61,939 nt of DNA from a virus: positions 1 to 61,939 of the IMG/VR virus record IMGVR_UViG_3300021475_000013; one strand, written 5' to 3'. A program made the translations under genes and the position numbers. Positions 4,439 to 37,464 of the stretch are shown here, one piece after another (the stretch's first letter is position 1; each line of letters begins with the position of its first letter). Under the pieces are notes generated by a model, which worked only from the letters and a program-made list of their open reading frames with translations, was not told where the DNA came from and ran no database searches.

Positions 4439-4447
4439 ATAATACCC
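4439..4447 (-). promoter_or_regulatory. candidate promoter for the capsid gene
   Basis: The minus strand reads TTGTTGGGTATTAT, a near-consensus -10 (TATTAT, plus 4439-4444) with an upstream TG. It lies about 20 bases before the capsid ATG in the 113-base gap after the protease-scaffold gene. It would give extra capsid expression. No clear -35. Confidence 0.45.
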
Positions 4448-4501
4448 AACAACTCATCTCACAAGTAATAGGTCTTTCGAGCTATATCCTGCAAGCATTG
4501 A

Positions 4502-4518
4502 GACTATCGACGATAGTC
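4502..4518 (-). promoter_or_regulatory. 8-bp inverted repeat between protease-scaffold and capsid genes
   Basis: GACTATCG-A-CGATAGTC forms a near-perfect palindrome in the intergenic gap. It has no following T-run on the minus strand, so it is probably not a terminator. It could be an RNA-stabilising or processing hairpin, or a protein-binding site, upstream of the highly expressed capsid gene. Confidence 0.5.
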
Positions 4519-4533
4519 CTCTGGGTTCTTCCA

Positions 4534-6147
4534 CTAAGACTGCTCTTGTGGAGCAATCGAAGAGAATTTGGATTTGAAGACCGACTTAAAGTCCTGAGGA
4601 CCTTTGTCGCTCTTTTGGACTTCCTCCACGGCTTTGGCGGTCAGTGCGTATTTCTTTCCATCTTTCGTGACCATGTAAGGAACTCCCATTGAAACCGATT
4701 TCTTGAAGCCTGCTTCTTTAAGCATACCCATCAAGTCCGACTGCAATCCAGAATCGGTACGGATTGCATCCGCGATCATCTGAGCAAGCCCAGGTACTCG
4801 CGTACCCGACTTCTCAAACTTTTCCGCCATCGTATCAGCAAACATTGCGACGGAAACCGCAAAGCGGTCGATGCTGGACACCTTTGACTCAGCAGATTTC
4901 TCTACCTTGTCTGTCTTTTCAGACTTAGTGACCTTGACTGACTTCATACCCTTAGTAAGTCCGTCGATATGAGCGATCGCATCAGAGATGCTTTTCATCT
5001 CATAATCCTTTTCGTCTTTCTTGTCTTCATCGTCTGCCGCTTTCTCAGTATCCTTTTCCTCGTCTTTTTTATCATCGTCAGCGGCTTTTTCCGTGTCTTC
5101 CTCTTTGTCATCTTTCTTGTCTTCTGCCTTAGCGGTCTGCTGTTCCTCTTCCTTCGGCTTGTCCTTGCTAGGATTCTCCGTCTCACGAGCATTATTTGCC
5201 GCAGTCTTCTTACCCTCAGCATCCTTAGTACCATTACCGCCATCATCTTCCTGACCCTCGCGAGCCTTGGCAGTCTGCTGTGTATCATCTTCCGCCTTAT
5301 CCTTATTAGGATTTACGGTCTCCTTCGGAGAATCACCCATAGCCTTGATAAGATTACCGATACCAGAAAATCCCTTTGCAACAAGATCAGCAAGTTTATC
5401 AAACTGACCTTTCGTAACGAAAGATTTCTCAGTCTCTTTCATTTCATCCTTCTTCTCTTCTTTGTTGTCTTCTTTTGACATATCTTTATTAACTAAATTA
5501 CTAATTTTTTCCCATTTATTGTCTGGAACAGACTTCGCAAATTGCACCAAATAATCAAGCTTGGGATTTTCAAACAAAAACTTGTTATACATCGGCGAGT
5601 CATAATATGGACTCACGTCTGCATCCTTTGCCTTGATACTCTTCGCAAAGAGCCACGCATCATAATTGGCGGGCTTCCTTGTGACCGACACCTCATCAAG
5701 GACGACATCATAAAATGTTTTTACCATCTTACCCGTCGACTCGACCATTTCACGGACTGCGTTTCTCACGCGACCGCCGACCGAAAGTCCGTACTTTGAT
5801 CCTTTCTTGAGGTTCTCGTGCAACATTGGACCAGCTGGATGTGAAGCATCAATCGCGGCGCGGATCCATAGCTGGTTACGTGAATCCACCCACGCTTTAT
5901 ATACATTACCAATTATAGCGGCTTTCTCTGCATTATGTTCATACCTGAGAGGTACGCCTTGATCATTGACCATACTTGCCATAGATTTAAGCGCATCCAT
6001 AGCCATTCTTTCGTTGTCATGATCCACATTAACAGTGCTCGCAATACCCTCAACGATCAGCTTTCCGTCTTCCTCCGTAGCCATAGCTTTTTCTATGTAG
6101 AACTCGAATGGAAACTCACCTTTTGCTTCTAAAGTGATCTTACTCAT
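4534..6147 (-). CDS. prohead protease fused to scaffold
   Basis: 537 residues. Residues about 1-175 are a U35/HK97-type prohead protease: IVEGIAS, then LRYEHN (likely catalytic His), then KYGLSVGGRVRN (likely Ser), then LDEVSVTRKPAN, the conserved closing motif. Residues about 210-390 are a highly charged, repetitive Lys/Asp/Glu region with repeats of NPxKDKxxxxxQQTAKA and DTEKAADD. A helical tail (MADAIRTDSGLQSDLMGMLKEAG) follows. The protease plus acidic scaffold in one chain fits HK97-like head assembly, in which the scaffold is degraded before DNA packaging. It ends upstream of the capsid gene. Confidence 0.88.
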   Translation of the reverse strand: MSKITLEAKGEFPFEFYIEKAMATEEDGKLIVEGIASTVNVDHDNERMAMDALKSMASMVNDQGVPLRYEHNAEKAAIIGNVYKAWVDSRNQLWIRAAIDASHPAGPMLHENLKKGSKYGLSVGGRVRNAVREMVESTGKMVKTFYDVVLDEVSVTRKPANYDAWLFAKSIKAKDADVSPYYDSPMYNKFLFENPKLDYLVQFAKSVPDNKWEKISNLVNKDMSKEDNKEEKKDEMKETEKSFVTKGQFDKLADLVAKGFSGIGNLIKAMGDSPKETVNPNKDKAEDDTQQTAKAREGQEDDGGNGTKDAEGKKTAANNARETENPSKDKPKEEEQQTAKAEDKKDDKEEDTEKAADDDKKDEEKDTEKAADDEDKKDEKDYEMKSISDAIAHIDGLTKGMKSVKVTKSEKTDKVEKSAESKVSSIDRFAVSVAMFADTMAEKFEKSGTRVPGLAQMIADAIRTDSGLQSDLMGMLKEAGFKKSVSMGVPYMVTKDGKKYALTAKAVEEVQKSDKGPQDFKSVFKSKFSSIAPQEQS

Positions 6148-18183: not shown

Positions 18184-19006
18184 CTTCTTTTTCTTTTACA
18201 ACCTCCAACGGTGGAGAAACGATGTACTCAATATTTGGCGCGAACTTCCACTTGTTGATAAACACTTGCTTATCAGAATTGAAGTCATTGACGCTCTCCA
18301 AGTCATCCCACCTTACGTTGAAAGAAAAGATTGGTACACGCTGGGTTGTGATAGCCTCAAACCCTTTCGAGTACAAACTCTGCCACATATCGCGTGCCAT
18401 GAAATAGTGGGTCTTGTAATTCTCATCAACAGTGATCATTTCGGCCGTAAGTCTACGACATCCGAAGAAGTCAAGATTGATATCTCTCTCTTCAACAGGT
18501 GCGTTCTGTCTGTATGTATCGAAGAACTTTGCGTCTATAACACCTTTCAAATCAAACCCGCATATCATCTTCGCATCATCCACGTTCACACGATCAATCA
18601 TGATGTCGATAGAATGCTCTTGAGTCATGATCCAAGGATTGATATTGATTATGAACTGAGCATCTGTTTCACTCAAAGCAAAATCAACGCCCTTCTTGAA
18701 ATAATCTACATACGTAGCACCTCTCTTATCAATCGGCACACCGAATACATTTCCCGCTTTCTGCCTAGACATAATATAATTACTGACTGGTCTTGGTAAC
18801 CTACGTGCCTCCGCAACAAAAATTATATACAACTGATGAACCGATGAGTACACACGATCGATGGCAATCTTAATAACCTCAAGGTCCAATTGTTTATTGA
18901 CCACATCATCCCAATACCCAAACAAAGGAACAATAACTGCCACCTTGCTCTTGGTGGTAACACTTACAAACTTATTCAACGTATCATCCAAATTACTTCC
19001 TGCCAT
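18167..19006 (-). CDS. glycosyltransferase-like protein (GT-A-like, divergent)
   Basis: 279 residues opening with a Rossmann-type strand and loop, KVAVIVPLFGYWDDV, followed by a helix and a second strand (QLYIIFVAEARRLP) as in GT2 enzymes. The expected DxD is not obvious; ININPWIM stands where it would be. It is the last gene of the glycan cassette in reading order. It may be inactive, use a different metal motif, or be a scaffold for the neighbouring transferases. Confidence 0.45.
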   Translation of the reverse strand: MAGSNLDDTLNKFVSVTTKSKVAVIVPLFGYWDDVVNKQLDLEVIKIAIDRVYSSVHQLYIIFVAEARRLPRPVSNYIMSRQKAGNVFGVPIDKRGATYVDYFKKGVDFALSETDAQFIININPWIMTQEHSIDIMIDRVNVDDAKMICGFDLKGVIDAKFFDTYRQNAPVEERDINLDFFGCRRLTAEMITVDENYKTHYFMARDMWQSLYSKGFEAITTQRVPIFSFNVRWDDLESVNDFNSDKQVFINKWKFAPNIEYIVSPPLEVVKEKEDEQGA

Positions 19007-22236: not shown

Positions 22237-22938
22237 CTACGTTAAAACTTTTAATACGGCCGTGAAACCGCCGTTAGCGACTTCTCCCCTTACATCCTTA
22301 AAGTGAACCCCATCCGTATACACGGTGTCGTGTGTATCTTTCAGTACCTCCTTGATCCTGATCAAGTCTTTCTGGCTATGCCACTCGCCCATGATGTACT
22401 TGATGTTCTTCAACCAGTCCTTAGCCCCCTCAAGAATATCTGGCTCGCTACCTTCGGTATCGATCTTGAGAAGGTCAATCCTTGGAAACATAGCCAGATC
22501 TACAACCGCTTCAAGCGTTATCGCTGGTACAGTCCTCGAGTAAAGAATCTCCGACCCAATTTCAGGTCTTCCAAATGTTTCCATATCAAACTTTCCTTTA
22601 ACATGATGGTTGCCCTGCCACTTGCATATGCTAAATTCTACATCCCTCAAGTTTGGATCACCTACGATCGCCGCCTCAATGTAGATAAGCTTATTGTCCG
22701 TGTTCTCTCTCAAGTAATCCATCATGGAACTCTCTGGCTCGCAAGAGATAATCTTCGCATTCGGAAAGATATTATGGGCATGAACACTGAATGCCCCTAT
22801 GTTCGCACCTATGTCGACAACGTACTCAACATCCTTGTGTGTCTCTGCAAATGATTTCAGACCATATGAATCATTGGTAATCACTTCTTGCTCGTGAGCA
22901 TCTGCATCCAGTCGAAGTTCTTCGCTAGCTTTTAGCAT
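22237..22938 (-). CDS. FkbM-family SAM-dependent methyltransferase
   Basis: 233 residues from ATG 22938, just after the upstream gene's stop. VEYVVDIGANIGAFSVHA is the SAM-binding motif I, ISCEPESSMMDYLREN is the acidic loop, and IDLLKIDTEGSEPDILEGA is the hallmark FkbM motif. The family O-methylates sugars or small molecules; here, among glycosyltransferases, it probably caps or decorates a glycan. Confidence 0.87.
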   Translation of the reverse strand: MLKASEELRLDADAHEQEVITNDSYGLKSFAETHKDVEYVVDIGANIGAFSVHAHNIFPNAKIISCEPESSMMDYLRENTDNKLIYIEAAIVGDPNLRDVEFSICKWQGNHHVKGKFDMETFGRPEIGSEILYSRTVPAITLEAVVDLAMFPRIDLLKIDTEGSEPDILEGAKDWLKNIKYIMGEWHSQKDLIRIKEVLKDTHDTVYTDGVHFKDVRGEVANGGFTAVLKVLT

Positions 22939-22940
22939 AA

Positions 22941-23780
22941 TTATTTTGTTAGATCCTTGTAAAACTCCAACGGCTCTGGATTCAACGTCTCCAAGTGATC
23001 TCTCTGAGTATGATACGAATAATGCATGATCACAGCATCTCCACAAAACCATACTGGCCTATTCTTCTCTCGTGGCAATTCCCACGCAAGCGATGCTTCC
23101 TCGAGCGTGCTTGGAGTTACTTTGTCCTTTCCCCAGAATGCGATGCTACAAATCGAGAACTGGCGGAAATCATCGAACGAGAAACTTGGAATGTAATATG
23201 CATTGAGCGTTCCTTCCTCATAGCGTTTCTTGAACGTCTTATGAATCAAATCAATGAGACCGCTATCCGCGTACGCGAACTCGTGAAGATACTGACCATT
23301 GCACTCTCCTGCTTCTTTACCGAGCGCACCATTGTCCTGATGCCAACGAGTGATGATGGTGCTATTGATTACGTTCGGATAGATGAGAAATGCGTCAGGG
23401 TGCTCTATGCGCGCGCGGGCGATCTTCTCAATCGCTCCCTCCTCATACCACACAACGTCATCATCGAACCTTATGTAAATCGTATCGTCGTCATGACAAT
23501 TCTTGAAGAACTCACAGCTCCTCATCGGGTCGCAGGTCTTATACGTCGGCACAATGTTGTCTATGAAAAATCTTTTGACCTTTGGATTCTCTGCCTCCAT
23601 GCTGGCCAAATATGCAATATCGCTCTCCTTAATCGTGTTCTGCCACAACTGCCATCCGTCGATCAACCCTTTCTCCATCTCCGCGTAAATGCGCTTCTTG
23701 AAAATAGCTAGATACTTTTCTCGACCTGCTGGGGTCACTATCACGATCTTCCACTGCTTACCTGTTGCATCTGCAATCAT
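22941..23780 (-). CDS. glycosyltransferase-like protein with DDD motif
   Basis: 279 residues. KIVIVTPAGREKYLAIFKKR at the N-terminus and TIYIRFDDDVVWYEEGAIEK in the middle give a GT-A-type nucleotide-sugar/metal site (DDD). A C-terminal acceptor region contains FCGDAVIMHYSYHTQR. A promoter lies directly upstream. Specificity unknown. Confidence 0.7.
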   Translation of the reverse strand: MIADATGKQWKIVIVTPAGREKYLAIFKKRIYAEMEKGLIDGWQLWQNTIKESDIAYLASMEAENPKVKRFFIDNIVPTYKTCDPMRSCEFFKNCHDDDTIYIRFDDDVVWYEEGAIEKIARARIEHPDAFLIYPNVINSTIITRWHQDNGALGKEAGECNGQYLHEFAYADSGLIDLIHKTFKKRYEEGTLNAYYIPSFSFDDFRQFSICSIAFWGKDKVTPSTLEEASLAWELPREKNRPVWFCGDAVIMHYSYHTQRDHLETLNPEPLEFYKDLTK

Positions 23781-23813
23781 GTATTTATTTATTAGAAATT
23801 AATAGTCCATCCA

Positions 23814-23841
23814 AATATATCAAACTACAGAAATACGTAAA
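23814..23841 (-). promoter_or_regulatory. promoter within the glycan cassette
   Basis: On the minus strand TTTACG (plus 23836-23841), a 16-base spacer that includes CTGTAGTTTGA, then TATATT (23814-23819) with an upstream TG. The spacer element CTGTAGTTTG also occurs before the promoter at 38969. It lies 34 bases before the ATG of the glycosyltransferase-like gene and would re-initiate transcription mid-cassette. Confidence 0.6.
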
Positions 23842-23863
23842 GGGATTAGTTATCCCCATGCCT

Positions 23864-24463
23864 TTACTCTCCGTCGATATGCTTACCAACATCCTCTAAA
23901 AGCCCCGCAACCATGTAACCTTTCTCACGAGTTCGAATGCAATAATCAACATCTTCGCCATTGCCACCTTTCATATTTGCAGGTCCGTTCTCTTTGAATG
24001 CACCGATGTCATTGATTACCGATCGCTTGAGCAACCATCCAACCGCAGGCATCTGATCCTTGATAACAAGGTTACCTCTCGTCTCAAGAACTCCATGCGC
24101 TGGATGCTTCCACACGCCGAGGATGCCTAGCTTTAGATTATCCTTATACGCCTGCAAGCATTTCTCATACCATCCATCGTGATAGATGACATCGTTATTG
24201 GAAACTAGAATGTACTCTGTATTCGAAAATCTTAGCGCATCGTTCACCGCTTTGCCCCATCCGTCATTCTTGTCATTCATAATGACTTGATGAGGGTGCT
24301 TAAAGCCATCTTGTAAAAGCCATTCGTAAAATCCTGCCTCCGTAGAATGATTATCGTAAACAATAATTTCTGCATTCGGCGTAGTCTTCCTCAACGAATC
24401 GATCGTTCTCTTTGAATACTCCAGTCTATTGTACGTCACTACAATCGTCGTCAGTGGTTCCAT
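23864..24463 (-). CDS. GT2-family glycosyltransferase
   Basis: 199 residues. LTTIVVTYNRLEYSKRTIDS, IIVYDNHST, GWGKAVNDAL and YILVSNNDVIYHDGW are classic GT2 motifs (the NND holds the metal/UDP). NGEDVDYCIRTREKGY matches the downstream ED motif. Shorter than most GT2 enzymes (about 250 or more residues) but all catalytic elements are present. Confidence 0.85.
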   Translation of the reverse strand: MEPLTTIVVTYNRLEYSKRTIDSLRKTTPNAEIIVYDNHSTEAGFYEWLLQDGFKHPHQVIMNDKNDGWGKAVNDALRFSNTEYILVSNNDVIYHDGWYEKCLQAYKDNLKLGILGVWKHPAHGVLETRGNLVIKDQMPAVGWLLKRSVINDIGAFKENGPANMKGGNGEDVDYCIRTREKGYMVAGLLEDVGKHIDGE

Positions 24464-24465
24464 AT

Positions 24466-24651
24466 CTACAGTTGCTCAATCTTCTTAAAAAAGACTTCGT
24501 AAATCTCTCGACTCACCCTAAAAAAGTGTTCGGAATTCAAAACCTCAGTATCTTCTATATTAAGTAATCTACGAAACTCCCTAGCTAATATGATCTCCAT
24601 ATCTCGTTTAGCATCCAACGTTATCTTCACTTGTCGTTCATTCAATTTCAT
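24466..24651 (-). CDS. small helical protein in glycan cassette
   Basis: 61 residues, charged and helical (KRDMEIILAREFRRLLNIED). It is separated by two bases from both neighbours, so it is a real operon member. No family recognised. Confidence 0.5.
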   Translation of the reverse strand: MKLNERQVKITLDAKRDMEIILAREFRRLLNIEDTEVLNSEHFFRVSREIYEVFFKKIEQL

Positions 24652-24653
24652 AT

Positions 24654-25706
24654 TTATATTTCTTTATCGCCACCCAATTCTTCTTCCTCCTCTTCTTCAG
24701 CAGGTGCTACTTTGAATAATTCGACCCATAAGTCCAATGCTTCAATGAGTGGCTCGAACTCCGTACCTTTCCAACGCTTCGCGGCCGCTTCGCTGAACGC
24801 CTCGAACATATCGTCATACATTCCCCATTCAATCGTCATCACGAGATAGTCCACTTCTCTGTAGAAGCTGTTCTCAAACGCGATCATCGCCTCTTCTTCC
24901 TTAGCATCTTCCTCTGGCTTCACGACAGTCTGATGCCACACGATCGGTTTACCATACACGATACGTTCGTTCCTGATTGCCATGAGACGCTGGAAGATGT
25001 ATCCGCCCCAAATATCATCATGTCTTCTGAACTCATACACTTTCTTCTGTTCTCCATGCGTATACTCAAAATTAGGTAGAAGAAGAAATGCAGGTATAGC
25101 TTGCGTCCATGCGGCCCAGTTCATGCCCGAGAGCGGTACGATGCCGTCTGCTACTTCATGCGAAGCCGTTATCATAGGGTCTTTGACCTGCTTCGTCGGG
25201 TTGGCCACGCGATCGGTGCCATACAAGTCCAATTCTCCTTCCCATAGACCAAGACTCAATATCGTCGGTCGCTCGCGCTCCACATACGGATATCCGCGTG
25301 AGAACCATCCCGTGTTCTTTATGACGTTAGTCCATCCGTGAGACTTCATCATGAGTGCCTCTAGGTGCTCTGAAATGAAGTTAGGCGGTACGACACAATC
25401 AGAATCTAGTCCCATGACGATGTCGTATCCTTCCTTCCACGCTAGCCAATGACCGAAGTTCTTGCAGGCTGATGACTTATGAAACTTCTCGAATCGTGCG
25501 TATAGTTCAGGTCCGAGTTCTTCTAGCTGTCGTGCGTAATCATATACTCGCCAATTACTTGGAAGCTCAACTTTGCCATTCGAGTCGTCGACAATGATCA
25601 CACTGACGTTCTCCTTGCCCACAGTGATGGCTTTTAATGATTCGATCCATTCCTTAGTAAGAGGAACGTGTACGGGCGCAACGATGGCTATTTTGAAATC
25701 GGGCAT
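24654..25706 (-). CDS. GT75/RGP-like glycosyltransferase or UDP-arabinose mutase-like
   Basis: 350 residues. The order LDSDCVVPPNF (DxD site), FSRGYPYVERERP, SLGLWEGELDLYGTDRV, VPLSGMNWAAW, then RRHDDIWGGYIFQR corresponds to motifs of reversibly glycosylated polypeptides (RGYP, GLW, SGMN, DDxWxG). In plants these interconvert UDP-arabinopyranose and -furanose; bacterial relatives are poorly known. The C-terminus is a helix and an acidic tail (EEEEEEELGG). An unusual member for a phage cassette. Confidence 0.7.
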   Translation of the reverse strand: MPDFKIAIVAPVHVPLTKEWIESLKAITVGKENVSVIIVDDSNGKVELPSNWRVYDYARQLEELGPELYARFEKFHKSSACKNFGHWLAWKEGYDIVMGLDSDCVVPPNFISEHLEALMMKSHGWTNVIKNTGWFSRGYPYVERERPTILSLGLWEGELDLYGTDRVANPTKQVKDPMITASHEVADGIVPLSGMNWAAWTQAIPAFLLLPNFEYTHGEQKKVYEFRRHDDIWGGYIFQRLMAIRNERIVYGKPIVWHQTVVKPEEDAKEEEAMIAFENSFYREVDYLVMTIEWGMYDDMFEAFSEAAAKRWKGTEFEPLIEALDLWVELFKVAPAEEEEEEELGGDKEI

Positions 25707-25707
25707 A

Positions 25708-25902
25708 TTATTTATTTTGTCCTTTTATCTCTTCCTTAAAATTTGCTTGAAATCCCGTTCCGCTCACGAGCTGTCGAATCTGCTCCTGCTCCTCTGGAGT
25801 ACCATCATCGGTGATGCGTGCTCTAATCTTAAGGTCTCCGTTATCTTCTTGCAAGATAACTACATCGATGAGTTCTTTGTATATCTTTAGGATTTTTACC
25901 AT
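25708..25902 (-). CDS. small protein in glycan cassette
   Basis: 64 residues, alternating strand and helix (ELIDVVILQEDNGDLKIRAR, TPEEQEQIRQLVSG). It overlaps the upstream transferase gene by seven bases. No family recognised. Confidence 0.5.
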   Translation of the reverse strand: MVKILKIYKELIDVVILQEDNGDLKIRARITDDGTPEEQEQIRQLVSGTGFQANFKEEIKGQNK

Positions 25903-26774
25903 ATAGCTTTGTGAGGCACTATGTGCTTCTGATTACGATACTCCTGCAAAAACACACGCTCTGCGGTCTTATACATCGCCGCGTCCCAATTACCATTATC
26001 CTCAGGCATAAGCCCTATACCTCGCGCAACACACCAATCCTTTGCCATATCTTGATAGCTCTGCTCTTGGTTAACAGTCTGACCACTGATGTGATCACAC
26101 GCGATACCAAGGACTGCAACCTTGAATCCTGACTCGAGCATCTGTGCCGAAATCAAACGATCGTAAAAATGATGCAACGGGAAGTCCTGCCTGAATCCGA
26201 TCTTCTCCCATGCAGTGCGTCTAATGATCATCGCGCATCCATCAACCACAGCCGCAGGTGAAATATCATTACCTACCATGCCATGAGCTCGAGCTGGCGA
26301 ACCTTTCCACACTCCCTCGCCCGTAACCATGGTGTTGCCCATGAAGTTCGACGTAGTGCCTCCGCCACGGCCGCTATTGCTATCCATCTCATTCGATCCC
26401 ACGAAACCTATAAGTCCTAAGTCTGGGTACTTGTTAAACGCCTCGAGCACACGATCCTGCCATCCTTGCTCCCACACCACCAAGTCCGAGTGAAAGAACG
26501 CCACTATGTCGCCCGTGGTGTTATCCATACCCTGCTTGAACGTCGGATATACGCCTATGGACTTCTGATTGCGAACGATGTTGGCACCAGGTGCGTCTTT
26601 GTCCTCGAGCGGTATGGTTGACCCATTATCGATGATCACTAACTCCACATCGCATCCTTTGACGATCCCTTTGGCCGTGGTGATGTCTTTCTCTGAGACT
26701 GCGAACAACTGCTTGTAGACTGAACGAAAGAGTGGGTGTTGGTTGAGTACTGGTATGCAAACGCTAAGCTTCAT
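25896..26774 (-). CDS. GT2-family glycosyltransferase
   Basis: 292 residues from ATG 26774 (just after the preceding stop). LSVCIPVLNQHPLFRSVY, ELVIIDNGSTIP, NIVRNQKSIGVYPTFKQG and DIVAFFHSDLVVWEQGW form the GT2 donor site; here the metal motif is HSD rather than DxD. DGCAMIIRRTAWEKIGF follows as in related enzymes. It is among the first transferase genes read from the leader-RNA promoter. Confidence 0.85.
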   Translation of the reverse strand: MKLSVCIPVLNQHPLFRSVYKQLFAVSEKDITTAKGIVKGCDVELVIIDNGSTIPLEDKDAPGANIVRNQKSIGVYPTFKQGMDNTTGDIVAFFHSDLVVWEQGWQDRVLEAFNKYPDLGLIGFVGSNEMDSNSGRGGGTTSNFMGNTMVTGEGVWKGSPARAHGMVGNDISPAAVVDGCAMIIRRTAWEKIGFRQDFPLHHFYDRLISAQMLESGFKVAVLGIACDHISGQTVNQEQSYQDMAKDWCVARGIGLMPEDNGNWDAAMYKTAERVFLQEYRNQKHIVPHKAIW

Positions 26775-26775
26775 A

Positions 26776-27054
26776 TTATTTTGATTTCTTATTTTGTTTC
26801 TGTGGTGTACCTTTTGAAACAATCACACGCTTCTTAACATCGATGTTCTTGAACTCCACATCAAACCATTCAGTTAAAGATTCGAAATCACTCTTCAAAT
26901 CCTCGAAATCTTTCTTGTTCGCCTTGAGTGCATGTAATTCCTGACACTCCTCCCATCTCCACCTAAGAGCTCTATCAGTTCTATTAACATCAAATCGATA
27001 CTGAATGTAGAACCCTACCACGAACACCGCGATGAAAATAAAAATGTATAGCAT
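26776..27054 (-). CDS. small single-pass membrane protein
   Basis: 92 residues. The N-terminal transmembrane segment (LYIFIFIAVFVVGFYIQY) is followed by a charged, probably coiled-coil cytoplasmic region. It could anchor or organise the transferases at the membrane. No family recognised. Confidence 0.55.
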   Translation of the reverse strand: MLYIFIFIAVFVVGFYIQYRFDVNRTDRALRWRWEECQELHALKANKKDFEDLKSDFESLTEWFDVEFKNIDVKKRVIVSKGTPQKQNKKSK

Positions 27055-27063
27055 ATGTTTTTG

Positions 27064-27255
27064 TTAAACTCCTAATACCTCCCGCGCCTCTTCGATGAAC
27101 TTCTTCTCTATGTTGCGCTGAATCCGAATCTCTATGCCAGTCCTACGTGCATCCCATGCGGCCGACTGAAACATGGGAACGTGAAGCGATTTCTCCTGAT
27201 TAGTCAACATCTTTCGTGCCATCTTAACTTTCTTCTCGTGTGATAGTCTGGCCAT
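27064..27255 (-). CDS. small basic protein
   Basis: 63 residues, Lys/Arg-rich helices (LSHEKKVKMARKMLTNQEK, IEKKFIEEAREVLGV). Two bases after the 57-residue gene upstream. A nucleic-acid-binding role is possible but nothing specific is visible. Confidence 0.5.
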   Translation of the reverse strand: MARLSHEKKVKMARKMLTNQEKSLHVPMFQSAAWDARRTGIEIRIQRNIEKKFIEEAREVLGV

Positions 27256-27257
27256 AA

Positions 27258-27431
27258 TTATTTCTTTAGATCTGCGATATCCTGCTTGCTGAGCGGACGC
27301 TCGAGCTTGATTCGAACTATGTCGCGCAGATTGATGTCGAGTCCCGAGTCGATGATCTCCTGACGCTGTTGCGTGTGCAGGGTATACGGAATATGAATCG
27401 TCTTGAATTTCTTGTTTTCTTCTGTAGTCAT
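27258..27431 (-). CDS. 57-residue protein, first gene of glycan operon
   Basis: Frame from ATG 27431 to TAA 27258. Sequence begins MTTEENKKFKTIHIPYTLH and continues with a helix (RQEIIDSGLDINLRDIVRIK). It is the first coding frame after the structured leader RNA and is followed by the next gene after two bases. Below the usual length cut-off, but spacing and composition support it. A ribbon-helix or Arc-like fold is conceivable. Confidence 0.55.
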   Translation of the reverse strand: MTTEENKKFKTIHIPYTLHTQQRQEIIDSGLDINLRDIVRIKLERPLSKQDIADLKK

Positions 27432-27457
27432 GTGTGTATTTATTCTTATAAAAGTAA

Positions 27458-27587
27458 TTCCCTTTGCCGAGCCGTCGTCTTCCAGGAGTTAAGCATTGCT
27501 CGTAGCCACTACGTGCGCGCGGGCTTCACCTGTTTGCAGGATTGTTCGCACAATGATCCGCTCACGATACCAGCTCGGCGAAAGGAA
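27458..27587 (-). ncRNA. structured leader RNA upstream of glycan operon
   Basis: A non-coding stretch between the promoter at 27610 and the ATG at 27431. A long closing helix pairs GCCGAGC (27466-27472) with GCTCGGC (27573-27579), extended by CCTTT with AAAGG across one bulged base. Inside, on the minus strand, lie ATTGT-GCGA-ACAAT with a GNRA tetraloop (27541-27554), CCTG-CAAA-CAGG (27529-27540) and CGTAG-TGG-CTACG (27501-27513). A multi-branch junction in a 5' leader suggests a riboswitch, attenuator or independent ncRNA. I do not recognise the class. Confidence 0.6.
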
Positions 27588-27609
27588 CTACCGACCAGTT
27601 AATACCTAC

Positions 27610-27652
27610 ATTATTACCATACTCCCATCCTATATGCAAAGAGTTATCCACA
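27610..27652 (-). promoter_or_regulatory. promoter of glycan operon with adjacent DnaA-box-like site
   Basis: On the minus strand TTGCAT (27634-27639), 17 bases, then TGG-TAATAAT (extended -10, 27610-27619). Just upstream, plus 27644-27652 is TTATCCACA, identical to a consensus DnaA box. Transcription would pass through the structured leader and into the glycan genes. Confidence 0.6.
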
Positions 27653-27655
27653 CCC

Positions 27656-29440
27656 TTATCTATGCCTCATCATCTGCATGAAAACTTCCTTCTCGTAGTT
27701 CTGCTCGGCGATGATAGCCTGATCCGCTTTCTTATTCTCCTCCTTCAGAATGACTGGGTCTTTGATATTCACTGGTTCTCTAAGCAAAGGACCATTGTCG
27801 ATGGACGGAACGACAAGTCTACCACTATCAAGATCTCGCATCTCCGAAAATGCGAACCACATGGCCATAAGCGAGTCTCCTGTATGTCCATCAGGAAATG
27901 CGCGCATCTCGTTCATCAACTGAGAAATCAGGCGTGTTGTTGCTGGATCATGTATATCATAAGGAAGAATCAATTTCTTATCTTCGGCAAAAATAGCCAG
28001 TGAGTTCACTCCAGCGTAAGGATCTTTCTTTTCTTTGCCAGTTTTATATCCTCGAACAGGAACACCCATATCATCTAAGTCCCTAACCATGGATTCTTGG
28101 AACCCTACGCTTTCCACTCTGATACCATCAGGTTGAAGTTTGTCATAATGTTCTTTCACTGTATTACGCACGGTCGCTGGTGAGAACTTGCCGCGCCAAA
28201 TGTTTCTTACGAAAATATCTCCACGTTTGATATTAGGATCAGTAGAGTACTTAACCCTATCTAGCGTAAGCAATACGGTATCATCAGATTTCTTTTCTTC
28301 CGAAATCGCCAAGTCCAATCCTTCCGTAGTTAATTCCATTTCAAATCCGTCTCGTTTGCCGAGTTGCAAACTATACTTAGAACCTTTATTAATCGCTTCC
28401 TGAAGCCATGATTCTTCGAACTTCTGATCGGGGCGAAGCGATGGGTCGCACTGATACATGCGCGCAAAGGCATATGGGTTATTCTTCCGCTCCAAATAAA
28501 ACCATCCATATCCGTGTCCTGACCCTTCGAACCTATCAGGCCAGAGCAACTGAATGCCTTCGTCCATTGCTTCCTTATTCTTTTCGTAAAACGCTTGCGC
28601 CATCGTCTGACGATCCTTGAATTCTATATCCTCATTGTAAAGAATCTTAGCCCATTCATCCCATAGATTTATGTTGATTGGATCCTGAATGATCGCTTTG
28701 ACTTTGTTTCGATAGTCATAAAACGGGTTCTTCAAGAGTCGAGACACCAAGTCGTCCATATGCCATGTGTTACCGAGATATAAGAAACGGCTGCCGCTCG
28801 CCAAAAGCACTGGTCGAATCGTCGTATCTACCCACTCCACGACCTTCTTGCGCTGATCCTCTGTCTCGGAGTTCTCCTGATCGACTATGTCGTCGCAGAT
28901 GATGACCTTCGCGCGCTTAGAAAGAATCGAACCGAACAAACCGACGGCCGTGACAGTCGGCTCTTTCACATTAAGATCGGTACGCCTGATGGAAATCGAA
29001 CGTCCTGACCAATTCTTCTTGGCTTTTGAATAACCTTTCATCTGCGGTATGACACCACGATCTGCTGGATCTTTGATCGTATCCTTATCGACATAACACG
29101 CAAAACGCTGATACCTATCGTTCGCCTCAATGTTACTGATGACCTGAGCCAAGAAGTCTTTTGCCATGCTTTCCGTATTACACACCAAAAGAATCGTTAC
29201 GTTGTGATCCATAGCCATGAGCCACATGACATACGAAACGCTGATGTGCTGGGACTTTCCATGATTACGCGGATACGAGATGACTATGCGCTTGTACGCT
29301 GAGTCTGAAATGATATTGTCGAGTTCGTTTTGAAATGGCGCGTTCTTGAACCCGCGAATGTACTCCACGAAAACCTTAAAGTCAGTCTTTGCTCGCTCAA
29401 AGACTTTTTGCTCGAACAGATTACTTTTCTGGGTTTCCAT
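27656..29440 (-). CDS. terL: terminase large subunit
   Basis: About 594 residues from ATG 29440 (ATG 29458 is also possible; both overlap the small terminase). The ATPase part has YPRNHGKS (Walker A, with the divergent form of TerL) and KVIICDDIVDQENSET (Walker B plus catalytic Glu). GSRFLYLGNTWHMDD follows as the coupling region. The C-terminal nuclease part begins around LDLAISEEKKSDDTVLLTLD, with an Asp likely binding metal. It pumps DNA into the prohead through the portal. Confidence 0.92.
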   Translation of the reverse strand: METQKSNLFEQKVFERAKTDFKVFVEYIRGFKNAPFQNELDNIISDSAYKRIVISYPRNHGKSQHISVSYVMWLMAMDHNVTILLVCNTESMAKDFLAQVISNIEANDRYQRFACYVDKDTIKDPADRGVIPQMKGYSKAKKNWSGRSISIRRTDLNVKEPTVTAVGLFGSILSKRAKVIICDDIVDQENSETEDQRKKVVEWVDTTIRPVLLASGSRFLYLGNTWHMDDLVSRLLKNPFYDYRNKVKAIIQDPININLWDEWAKILYNEDIEFKDRQTMAQAFYEKNKEAMDEGIQLLWPDRFEGSGHGYGWFYLERKNNPYAFARMYQCDPSLRPDQKFEESWLQEAINKGSKYSLQLGKRDGFEMELTTEGLDLAISEEKKSDDTVLLTLDRVKYSTDPNIKRGDIFVRNIWRGKFSPATVRNTVKEHYDKLQPDGIRVESVGFQESMVRDLDDMGVPVRGYKTGKEKKDPYAGVNSLAIFAEDKKLILPYDIHDPATTRLISQLMNEMRAFPDGHTGDSLMAMWFAFSEMRDLDSGRLVVPSIDNGPLLREPVNIKDPVILKEENKKADQAIIAEQNYEKEVFMQMMRHR

Positions 29441-30062
29441 CTTGTTTTTCTTCTGCATCTATAGACGCCAAGACCTCGGGACTGAAGACCGAGCTGTCAA
29501 CCATATAGTTATTATTCTGAATGACGGTGCCTATCATCGGATTGACTGGCGGTAACGGATCTTGCTTACCCCATTTAGATGGATTACGTCGTTCCGCCGC
29601 CCACATCAGAACGCTTGCTGTCTCCTTTTTCAGATGACTGACGATACCACTCTCGATAAGCATATCTCCTATATTTTCACATATCTCTTTCACTCGGTAG
29701 AAGTCTGGGTGAAGCTCCACAAAGTAATCCCATTGATCTATTGAAATACCCGCATAAATACAGGATTGTTTGATATTGTACCCGTTCTTGAACCCAGTTA
29801 TCAGATTCTCTACTTTTCCCCTTTCGTTCCACCAAGTCCCAGATTTCCCCCTTAGCACTTCAAACTTACCGAAACCCTTGTCTGGAATGACATATGCAAT
29901 CTCTCTGACATTTTCCTGCACGGCCTGTGCAGGCGGTATAACTACTGCTGTATTAGGAATAGGATCAACTATGCTTGGCATGACTTCTGCCGTATCTTGT
30001 GCATTTAACTGCACGGATTCCGTTGAGTCCTTATTCTGAGCCGTTTTTTCTTGATCGTTCAT
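29421..30062 (-). CDS. terminase small subunit (putative)
   Basis: 213 residues. A disordered N-terminal 70 residues precedes a helical domain with an HTH-like stretch (GFKNGYNIKQSCIYAGISID) and VKEICENIGDMLIESGI, similar to the DNA-binding and oligomerisation parts of TerS proteins. Directly upstream of and overlapping TerL, the standard arrangement. It would recognise the packaging start site. Confidence 0.75.
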   Translation of the reverse strand: MNDQEKTAQNKDSTESVQLNAQDTAEVMPSIVDPIPNTAVVIPPAQAVQENVREIAYVIPDKGFGKFEVLRGKSGTWWNERGKVENLITGFKNGYNIKQSCIYAGISIDQWDYFVELHPDFYRVKEICENIGDMLIESGIVSHLKKETASVLMWAAERRNPSKWGKQDPLPPVNPMIGTVIQNNNYMVDSSVFSPEVLASIDAEEKQDGNPEK

Positions 30063-30210
30063 TATCTTTTATAAAAATCAATCCACATACAGCACAAGAA
30101 TAATCGCTTTCTATGACTTCACTATCACATCGTGGGCAAATCAATACTGGTCGGCCGCCAGGTGTCTCTACTCCCTCAAATGGTACGTTTTTGAATGTAT
30201 CTGAACTCAT
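30031..30210 (-). CDS. 59-residue zinc-ribbon protein overlapping terS
   Basis: Frame from ATG 30210 to TAA 30031. Sequence includes GGRPVLICPRCDSEVIESD and SCAVCGLIF: two CxxC pairs 15 residues apart, a compact zinc ribbon. It overlaps the small-terminase start by 32 bases in another frame and starts four bases after the methyltransferase stop. Too short for default gene calls. A DNA- or protein-binding accessory to packaging is a guess. Confidence 0.65.
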   Translation of the reverse strand: MSSDTFKNVPFEGVETPGGRPVLICPRCDSEVIESDYSCAVCGLIFIKDNERSRKNGSE

Positions 30211-30213
30211 TAT

Positions 30214-31476
30214 CTATTTATTTATCTCTCCCCACGATACGCCATCCTCCCTCACTGGGTCTTTACCTGTGTACTTAGCCCATCGGTTAAGTATTGCATG
30301 AACGTACTTCGGGTCCATTTCCATGAGTCGAGCCTTCCTATTGGCCTGTTCGCACGCCATAAGAGTGCTACCCGAGCCGCCAAACGCATCGACCACAATG
30401 TCCCCATGCTGGCTGTTCTTCTTCAATGCGCGTTCGGCCAGTCTCACGGGCTTTTGCGTCGGGTGGATATATCCTCTCGTAGCGTCTCGCTTCTCGTACC
30501 ATAAATCGATCATTTGCGGCCAATCGGTCTGATCCAAGCTATTCATGTCTTGGAAGTTGGAGTACTTGGTGTTCTTGTAGTGAGAATTTCCTTTCTTCCA
30601 GCCGAACATGCATGGCTCATACGTACGTAGATAGTCTAGTCCGAATTTCAGCATGGGCGTCTTAACCCACAATATGATCTGCGATATGGAGAATCCATTC
30701 TCAATGAGTGCCATCCTATTGGCTATCTCCTGTTTGTCCGCATACCACCAGTAGATTGACGCATCATCCGTTGAGAATGCATACAGATGTATGAGAATTG
30801 CGTTATAGAAATTGAATGCCTCTTCCTCTGTCTTATCGTCATCGAATACTTTCTTCCCTTTGAACTTGCCGCTCGAGTACGAATTTCCCGTTCGGCTCTT
30901 GTAGTCTATGGAGTACGGCGGATCGGTGAAAACCAATCTAGCTTTGTCTCCGTCCATTAGCTTAGTCCAATCATCCTGCTTGGTTGAATCGCCGCACAAA
31001 ATCCTATGATTGCCTAGAATATAAAGCTCTCCTGTCTTTGCTTTGACCTCCGTGATCTTGGCCAATTCTTCCTCTTCATTGAAATCATCCTCTTTCGTCT
31101 CGAAGAAATTCAGATCCGCTTTATCAAAACCCAAGTCAATCAGCTCCTCCACATCGAAGTTGTTCGCCATGGTAGAAAAGTCCCATTCCCCAGTATTTCG
31201 GTTCAATCTAATATTGAGACGTTTCTCATTCTCTAAGTCTAAATCTACATATACAACTGGTATCTCCTTAAACCCTAACGAGCACGCTATCTTGTAGCGC
31301 ATATGACCGCCGACAATGACGTTATGTCGATCTTTATGCTTATTTACGATGATTGGGTCAACCAATCCGAACTCTTTCATTGATGCGGTTAGGTCCGCGT
31401 ATTGCTTGTCGGTCAATCTGCGCGGGTTGTATTCCGCTTCTTTTAGATTTTCTACTGGTACGTTTACGATTTCCAT
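30214..31476 (-). CDS. ParB-like domain fused to DNA methyltransferase
   Basis: 420 residues. Residues 1-90 form a ParB/Sulfiredoxin-like N-domain (VPVENLKEAEYNPRRLTDKQ, VIVGGHMRYKIACSLGFKEI). The rest is a beta-class amino-methyltransferase: LVFTDPPYSIDY (DPPY catalytic motif) and VVDAFGGSGSTLMACEQANR (SAM-binding FxGxG). It methylates an adenine N6 or cytosine N4. The fusion is frequent in phages and protects DNA from restriction; its place just before the terminase genes may link methylation with packaging. Confidence 0.88.
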   Translation of the reverse strand: MEIVNVPVENLKEAEYNPRRLTDKQYADLTASMKEFGLVDPIIVNKHKDRHNVIVGGHMRYKIACSLGFKEIPVVYVDLDLENEKRLNIRLNRNTGEWDFSTMANNFDVEELIDLGFDKADLNFFETKEDDFNEEEELAKITEVKAKTGELYILGNHRILCGDSTKQDDWTKLMDGDKARLVFTDPPYSIDYKSRTGNSYSSGKFKGKKVFDDDKTEEEAFNFYNAILIHLYAFSTDDASIYWWYADKQEIANRMALIENGFSISQIILWVKTPMLKFGLDYLRTYEPCMFGWKKGNSHYKNTKYSNFQDMNSLDQTDWPQMIDLWYEKRDATRGYIHPTQKPVRLAERALKKNSQHGDIVVDAFGGSGSTLMACEQANRKARLMEMDPKYVHAILNRWAKYTGKDPVREDGVSWGEINK

Positions 31477-35468: not shown

Positions 35469-36698
35469 TTAGTCTCCTTTTACGTTAACCAACTGCCTAA
35501 GCGTGTGTGTAATCTTTACGAGATCCTTGGCGTACTCCATGACCTTGTCGATGTCCTTATACGCTCCAGGGATTTCGTCGATCAGAACATCCGAAACGCG
35601 ATACTCGATGCCGACCATAGCCTTGGCCAAGTCGTCCATATTGAACGCCTTTTTAGCCGCACCGCGCGACATCCTGCGACCAGCTCCGTGCGGCGACGAC
35701 TCAAACGCCATCTTGTTAGCCAATCCCTCGATAATGTAGCTACGCGCGCCCATAGAGCCAGGTATCATGCCGCGCATGCCCTCACCAGCATGGATAGCAC
35801 CTTTGCGCGTGACCCATACTTTCTGTCCGAAATGCTCCTCGAACTGCGCGAAATTGTGATGACAATTTATGCGCTCAACTTCGATCTCTGCCTGATGTCC
35901 ATTCTCTCCGTAGAAATGGTAGGAAAGCTCTGTCATGACGCGATCCATCATCTCCTCGCGGTTGAGCAAAGCGAAGTGTTGCGCCCACGCTACGTCCCTG
36001 ATGTACTCGGAAAACAATGCCTCATGCTCTGGTATGTAAGCCAAATCCAAATCCGTAAGCTCAATGAAATACTTACGCATGATGTCTTTAGCGGCCTCGA
36101 TGTACCAGTTGCCGATCTTGTTTCCTATGCCACGAGATCCGCTATGAAGCGTTGCCCAAACAGTGTCCTCCTCATCAACGCAAATCTCAATGAAATGATT
36201 ACCTCCTCCGAGCGTACCAAGTTGTTCACGCCAATTTTTTGAGAATGAATCATACCAAAACATGCCGTTACCAGACGATTCAACAGACTCTTTGTGTTTG
36301 TCGGGGTCAGTATCCCTAAACTTTTCATCAAGAATCTTAATGCGAGCCGCGGCGCTCTCCGTGATCGTCGTATTGAACTTTCCAGCCGACATAGGAATGC
36401 GACGCTCTATACCCTCGCGCATTTTTGCAAGGTCTTTCAAGTCCCCGATCTTCTTGTTCGTCTTGACCGCGATCATGCCGCACCCGATATCGACACCGAC
36501 GGCCGCAGGTATGATTGCGCCCTTGGTGGCAAGAACAGTGCCGACAGTCGCACCCTTTCCGAAATGACAGTCGGGCATGACAGCCACATGCTTAAAGAGA
36601 AACGGCATCTTTGATGTGTTCTCAATCTGCTTGAGTGCGTCCACCTCGATCTCCTCGATCGGCACCCACGATATTGCTTTGTCGTTAATTTTATACAT
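35469..36698 (-). CDS. rtcB: RNA ligase RtcB
   Basis: 409 residues from ATG 36698 (8-bp overlap with the preceding gene), the usual family size. All active-site elements are visible: MPDCHFGKGATVG and VGVDIGCGM (metal Asp/Cys), TLGGGNHFIE, LHSGSRGIGN, NCHHNFAQ, GSMGARSYIIEG, and SSPHGAGRRMSR with the His that receives GMP. RtcB joins 2',3'-cyclic-phosphate and 5'-OH RNA ends using GTP and Mn. In phages it probably repairs tRNAs cut by host defence nucleases; three tRNA genes are on the same genome. No archease gene is evident. Confidence 0.95.
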   Translation of the reverse strand: MYKINDKAISWVPIEEIEVDALKQIENTSKMPFLFKHVAVMPDCHFGKGATVGTVLATKGAIIPAAVGVDIGCGMIAVKTNKKIGDLKDLAKMREGIERRIPMSAGKFNTTITESAAARIKILDEKFRDTDPDKHKESVESSGNGMFWYDSFSKNWREQLGTLGGGNHFIEICVDEEDTVWATLHSGSRGIGNKIGNWYIEAAKDIMRKYFIELTDLDLAYIPEHEALFSEYIRDVAWAQHFALLNREEMMDRVMTELSYHFYGENGHQAEIEVERINCHHNFAQFEEHFGQKVWVTRKGAIHAGEGMRGMIPGSMGARSYIIEGLANKMAFESSPHGAGRRMSRGAAKKAFNMDDLAKAMVGIEYRVSDVLIDEIPGAYKDIDKVMEYAKDLVKITHTLRQLVNVKGD

Positions 36699-37464
36699 TG
36701 AGTTTTGGAATACTTGTAAGCTCGAAATCCTTGTCATCCTTGCCGAGCCTGTCGACTATCTCATCGAACTTGAGGTCGCAGAACTCGTCCTCCCAATCCG
36801 CTATGAAATACAACCGATCGCTCTCGCGGATGATGCCGAACAATACTGGGTCGCGCATTTTCTGTTTTTCCTCTGGCGTGAGCTTCTGTTCTTTCGCGCG
36901 CTTCTCTTCAACCTTACCCTCCCAATAGTGATAGACCACATATCCATCGAAACATCCGTCAAACTTATTTTTCTTAGCCAAGACGTCCTCGGGAACGACA
37001 CGCGTGTACTCTTTGAGAAGCGTGTCCGAAATATGACCATCTCTGATCTTGTTCTTGTATTTTTGTAGGTCTTCGCGCTCTATAAAATGACGAATACCTT
37101 TCGCATATAGAACGCTCTCGCGCGTCTCACGGACGAACTCCGTCATAAACTTGCGACCGAGAACCTCCTGCCCGTTCTCTACAGCCTTGTTGAAAGCTTT
37201 CTCCAGCTTTGCCAGTCGGCTCTTCATACGCATACCCTCGAGCGTGCCAAACTTGCTCTTTATGAACTTGAAATACAGCTCGGGATGAATGCGCGTCTCT
37301 ACCTTTGAAAGCTTCATCTCCACCTGATCAGAAATGTAGTTGAGCTGTCCCATCATAGTCGTCACATTAGTTGCACCCGTATCCCATGCAGTGATCGGCT
37401 GATTTATGATGTAGTGATTGACCGCAGTGGTCGCTTGAGTCTGTGTTGGATTTTGTTCGTTCAT
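36691..37464 (-). CDS. unknown protein upstream of RtcB
   Basis: 257 residues. Disordered N-terminus (NEQNPTQTQATTAVNHY), then a long helical region (VEMKLSKVETRIHPELYFKF, RLAKLEKAFNKAVENG) and a C-terminal alpha/beta end (PVLFGIIRESDRLYFIADWE). It overlaps RtcB by eight bases, so the two are co-translated. An RNA- or RtcB-related role is only inference. Confidence 0.55.
   Translation of the reverse strand: MNEQNPTQTQATTAVNHYIINQPITAWDTGATNVTTMMGQLNYISDQVEMKLSKVETRIHPELYFKFIKSKFGTLEGMRMKSRLAKLEKAFNKAVENGQEVLGRKFMTEFVRETRESVLYAKGIRHFIEREDLQKYKNKIRDGHISDTLLKEYTRVVPEDVLAKKNKFDGCFDGYVVYHYWEGKVEEKRAKEQKLTPEEKQKMRDPVLFGIIRESDRLYFIADWEDEFCDLKFDEIVDRLGKDDKDFELTSIPKLNV

Follow-up and report, generated by a model that had tools for sequence, protein, structure and literature searches.

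A candidate structured mRNA leader behind the terminase large subunit gene of an uncultivated phage

Results

The 61,939 bases analyzed here (the window) come from a phage and constitute a separate virus record. A 127-base repeat is present at the ends, and almost every gene is encoded on the minus strand. Read in the direction of transcription, the locus of interest comprises a terS-like gene, the gene for the terminase large subunit (terL; 27656–29458, minus strand; phrog_38, 2e-68), a gap of 224 bases, three small genes of 57, 63 and 92 codons, and glycosyltransferase genes. The genes of this phage mostly abut and the gap is long by comparison. The first gene downstream (27258–27431, minus strand) encodes 57 aa that could not be assigned to a family, and the further small genes and glycosyltransferases, collectively the glycan genes, occupy 22237–27255 on the same strand. 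Elsewhere, the phage carries a gene for an RtcB-type RNA ligase (35469–36737, minus strand; phrog_1075, 9e-140).

Approximately 150 nt between terL and the 57-codon gene can be folded as a branched RNA on the minus strand (27454–27603). The first-pass annotation described a closing stem of 12 bp, and this is present, with CCTTT-GCCGAGC at 27461–27472 opposite GCTCGGC-g-AAAGG at 27573–27585 and a bulged C at 27580. Fold prediction extends it to approximately 21 pairs with the one bulge, formed by a 5´ arm at 27592–27573 and a 3´ arm at 27472–27454, and enclosing an inner helix and two arms. The internal hairpins of the earlier description were likewise found. Arm 2 (27536–27561, minus strand) is predicted to be an AUUGU-GCGA-ACAAU hairpin (27541–27554) on a GCGG/CUGC base, and its GNRA loop exists, as had been claimed, exclusively on the transcribed strand. 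Arm 3 (27483–27532, minus strand) is predicted to have a CAGG/CCUG base and inner helices that pair 27491–27494 with 27523–27526 and 27501–27505 with 27509–27513; its interior is poorly determined, and much of it is dropped by the centroid structure. By its closing stem, the branched element is set apart from the A/U-rich sequence in which the 57-codon gene starts; approximately 11 unpaired nt would precede this stem at the 5´ end. The element is single-copy in the genome and contains no supported ORF.

The minus-strand transcript would begin near 27603, at a promoter position directly 3´ of terL that is often kept by the clade. A promoter of the form TTGCAT-17-TAATAA was proposed previously; both hexamers exist at this spacing (27634–27639 and 27611–27616, 17 nt), but they match the sigma-70 consensus poorly (3/6 each) and a promoter scan found none. 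With TTGCAT retained as a weak −35-like box on the minus strand, AATAAT (27610–27615, minus strand; 5/6), located 18 nt after it, is a better −10 box than TAATAA, and a probable one, its position agreeing with that of the −10-like boxes seen in relatives. Taken by itself, the −10-like signal shows only moderate enrichment in this position (20 of 22 loci versus 15.4 ± 1.9 in shuffles). In the relatives, what lies beyond the promoter position is mostly a gene, and in five of them (L055, L059, L061, L067 and L069) a start codon follows 6–7 nt after the −10 box, a spacing suggestive of leaderless messages. The window differs in that its first start codon is found approximately 180 nt past the −10 box, with the non-coding, structured stretch in between. 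By virtue of a position common to relatives, the promoter is, as far as sequences can tell, better supported than the RNA fold.

The consensus DnaA box reported at the promoter, TTATCCACA, is present on the plus strand at 27644–27652, 5 nt past the terL stop codon. It is the one exact copy in the whole window (0.63 expected per genome). The identical 9-mer occurs close to the terL stop codon, at most a few nt away, in L055, L066, L067 and L069, and thus in five phages with the window, two of the loci (L067 and L069) being derived from closely similar phages. Near versions are found just 3´ of terL in L059, L068 and L125. The exact boxes precede a −10-like box by 24–34 nt, and the orientation in the window is opposite to that in the relatives. 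The box may serve as a regulator site for DnaA or for a phage protein. Together with the inverted arms of the closing stem and the neighbouring terminase gene, it could alternatively mark an element acting at the DNA level, namely the termini of a small mobile element, a site for packaging, or an origin of replication adjoining the box. We find this very doubtful: a cluster of DnaA boxes, as in a replication origin, is lacking in a genome with a single exact copy, the box is placed upstream of −10-like boxes in relatives, and the inverted arms are single-copy, show no clear target-site duplication by eye and have no equivalent in relatives.

In terms of stability, the closing stem is the top-scoring stem in the genome among those with an interior of 40–150 nt (score 35; runner-up 32), and a score of 35 or more was also reached in 3 of 20 shuffled genomes. 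For the whole element, the folding z on the minus strand is −2.4, with 3 of 200 shuffles doing as well; the plus strand of the same region gives −2.7, a value equalled by 2 of 200 shuffles. Since these values are similar, energy gives no strand bias, and the earlier strand-bias argument for a minus-strand RNA is weak. An RNA cannot be proven, nor its strand chosen, from folding energy alone; the promoter and the direction of the genes are what point to the minus strand. In a scan of the genome, the leader region ranks as the 20th minus-strand folding peak. The strongest peak of the genome (46976–47125; z −7.4) is a long imperfect hairpin, CCTATTGT...ACAATAGG.

These modest values, equal on both strands, and the shuffled genomes with an equally good stem are what would be expected of a chance fold or a decayed sequence in a variable slot where the promoter alone matters, as is the absence of a homologue of the leader from everything searched. 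Such an origin leaves unexplained that the best stem of the genome falls in one of its few non-coding gaps, and that this gap is long for a phage with mostly abutting genes. It is mainly through this location that the closing stem stands out, and because of it the stem is probably real; we consider a chance fold somewhat unlikely.

Relatives of the phage were collected from IMG/VR using portal protein, TerL and major capsid protein (MCP) queries, with identities of up to 85% for MCP and up to about 60% for TerL. No such MCP was found among 50,697 phage records, and the clade is therefore without a relative in that collection at that sensitivity. The leader RNA was not recovered from approximately 20 distinct terL loci by blastn or a one-sequence covariance model, nor by blastn and nhmmer over 1.2 Mb of loci; the IMG/VR search may omit records very near the window, so that near homologues may exist unseen. 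Searches of IMG/VR with exact and IUPAC patterns of the leader, and with a single query concatenated from the three small downstream proteins, gave no match. DNA similarity was absent from phages and limited to chance matches in plasmids, and literature searches returned nothing specific on the leader RNA. The relatives carry differing small genes or other sequences downstream of terL. The earlier assignment to no known class held up in Rfam, where none of 4227 families matched at gathering score and relaxed thresholds revealed nothing relevant; the best sub-threshold match, to SCARNA7 (20.7 versus 65 bits), is chance-like. A terminase-adjacent packaging RNA kept upstream of terS in the relatives was likewise considered and rejected, because those gaps consist of ORF remnants, terminators, promoters or AT-rich sequence and have no RNA in common.

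Other structured non-coding stretches are seen in or near the slot 3´ of terL in the clade. In L068, approximately 270 nt of non-coding sequence follow the terL promoter (1690–1965), with a promoter-like site, a first hairpin (z −5.0), and then a hairpin with a U-run; this stretch has no match in Rfam and is a probable free ncRNA gene behind terL. L070 has a long hairpin (z −3.0) one small gene after the slot, and L120 has a three-way junction (5160–5236; z −4.8) two small genes later, after a TTGACA-17-TATTAT promoter. The slot sequence of L125 folds no better than shuffles (z −1.2). L120 further has a multi-branched leader directly before terS (2322–2420; z −5.2), which is also the best match of the one-sequence model of the terL leader, at a weak 15.8 bits (E 0.03). 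The structured RNAs of L068, L070 and L120 share no detectable sequence, which suggests a habit of the clade to head transcription units with structured RNA, and not one family.

The occupants of the slot, together with a fold that is self-contained, invite the interpretation that the element is a free small RNA gene, acting in trans or in packaging, and that the downstream genes have a start of their own. It would then be expected to carry an intrinsic terminator directly after the fold, as in L068, and to be kept in relatives with the same terminase; it does neither, and the sequences of L068, L070 and L120 are unrelated to it. A free RNA is on balance unlikely. More specifically, the element may be an independent phage RNA, with a role in trans or in packaging, that belongs to several fast-changing RNA genes loaded into the promoter slot behind terL, with the unrelated RNAs of the same three relatives as further examples; this we regard as quite improbable.

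A by-product of the comparison was a second structured RNA, located directly upstream of the MCP gene in the window (4442–4527, minus strand) and in 11 relatives (L027, L028, L031, L035, L037, L038, L040, L043, L044, L046 and L096). Its outline is AACCC-hairpin-UCGCC-arm-GAUAAG-GGG. A covariance model, R1, built from a seed alignment of eight of these leaders, recovered four sequences that had not been part of the seed (L040, L096, L027 and L028/L109), and good scores were confined to MCP loci. In the 12-sequence alignment, 93% of the cells pair and both partners change in 15 of 19 pairs, counts that lean towards the model because the alignment was fitted to R1. None of 500 shuffles reached these pairing and covariation values, and slid controls were 31–53% paired. 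An unfitted MAFFT alignment analyzed by RNAalifold already had double changes in 11 of 18 pairs. The RNA has no match in Rfam, and it deserves more attention than the terL leader. L036 (890–985) and L042 (880–985) have, by eye, a seeming circular permutation of the MCP leader, with GAGAUAAG at the 5´ end and UUCGCUC at the 3´ end.

The MCP and terL leaders reside in the same genome, and both have a branched fold directly before a gene and a GNRA-capped arm. By eye, shared elements (GTGAGCGGAT..GNRA..CCTGC and GGTCGG..TTTCGCC) suggested a single family. Both the model score and alignment shuffles ruled this out: R1 has no match at the terL leader, scoring 2.1 bits at most with filters off, and the similarity of the terL leader to the MCP leaders is at chance level (39 of 200 shuffles as high). 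By both covariance model and sequence similarity, they are different RNAs.

Discussion

We tentatively favour a cis-acting, structured 5´ mRNA leader that affects mRNA half-life or processing over a riboswitch, a free ncRNA and a chance fold. On this view, the message that encodes the downstream small genes and the glycosyltransferases would open with ~150 nt of structured, untranslated leader. What was found is a non-coding stretch between a gene and a promoter, the latter recognized by comparison only, and no terminator-like site was detected between 26700 and 28200, such that the element runs into the gene without a terminator. Hairpins with U-runs are present elsewhere in relatives (G013, G014 and L068). 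Further support comes from the structured element directly before the capsid gene of the same genome, with its strong covariation in relatives. Counted against the leader are a weak −35 box, a modest fold, the lack of a homologue, and the fact that most relatives do without it. In our model, the leader is probably real, structured and lineage-specific, and is served by a well-placed promoter.

The first-pass annotation proposed a structured leader of unknown class and, among its possible functions, a riboswitch or attenuator controlling sugar genes. The former part stands insofar as the element is unclassified, non-coding, foldable, and placed behind a promoter position common to relatives; the latter part finds no support. 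A metabolite-sensing riboswitch or attenuator might be looked for in a branched fold that, like this one, follows a promoter and precedes an operon with glycosyltransferases. However, there is no match to an Rfam riboswitch and no terminator hairpin with a U-run before the gene, and relatives retain glycosyltransferase genes without the leader RNA. The 57-codon gene does not have a sequestered start region, but one approximately as open as other starts (0.48 unpaired over −30 to −1 versus a median of 0.52), and the possible short upstream ORFs, e.g., 16 codons from 27496, are without support. A switch of this kind is very unlikely. The lack of a terminator and the open start region argue against both a terminating attenuator and the hiding of the start codon, and a protecting or processing leader is consequently the simplest reading left. 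One possibility is that the stem slows nucleases; alternatively, it may present a cleavage site. Either way, the leader would most likely alter the half-life or processing of the mRNA rather than act as a switch of translation or termination. Transcription, co-transcription with the glycan genes and the role in stability or processing are all inferred.

Leaders at the 5´ end of phage mRNAs or between cistrons are known, e.g., the hairpins before the late genes of T7 and the ends processed by RNase III. The terL leader resembles these in the succession of promoter, stable stem, open A/U-rich region and gene, but is larger and branched, and no homologues of it were found. Protective hairpins at the 5´ end usually have fewer unpaired nt ahead of the stem than the ~11 predicted here. 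The terS leader of L120 similarly has a long, interrupted closing stem around several hairpins; it is located upstream of terS and not downstream of terL, there is no sequence similarity, and the weak score between the two may reflect shape only. A further comparison is with the packaging RNA of phage phi29, a small, branched phage RNA. The terL leader is also small and branched and adjoins the gene for the packaging ATPase, but has no match in Rfam and is missing from relatives that share the terminase.

Taken alone, the terL leader would be one more unclassified phage leader with a predicted fold. More important is that, immediately behind terL, the clade retains a promoter position with a DnaA-box-like operator and swaps the downstream content: most phages have genes there with next to no leader, and a few have structured non-coding RNA. 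In addition, the same genome has a covarying RNA before the capsid gene that is covered by no Rfam family. If such leaders set the levels of late mRNAs in hosts in which, by inspection, start codons are rarely preceded by a Shine-Dalgarno sequence, they would make late-gene control in uncultivated phages accessible to testing.

Several other features were observed in the clade. A very strong fold (30527–30696; z −13) was seen in G018, upstream of the terminase genes, within a gap of 1.4 kb that has few ORFs. ARAGORN located tmRNA genes in two relatives, G004 (18313–18674) and G020 (29862–30171), the latter of which also has more than 30 tRNA genes. The capsid matches of G024 are in several pieces, and in L048, L049 and L051 the MCP gene is split by an insertion that, by eye, resembles a group I intron with an HNH-type ORF.
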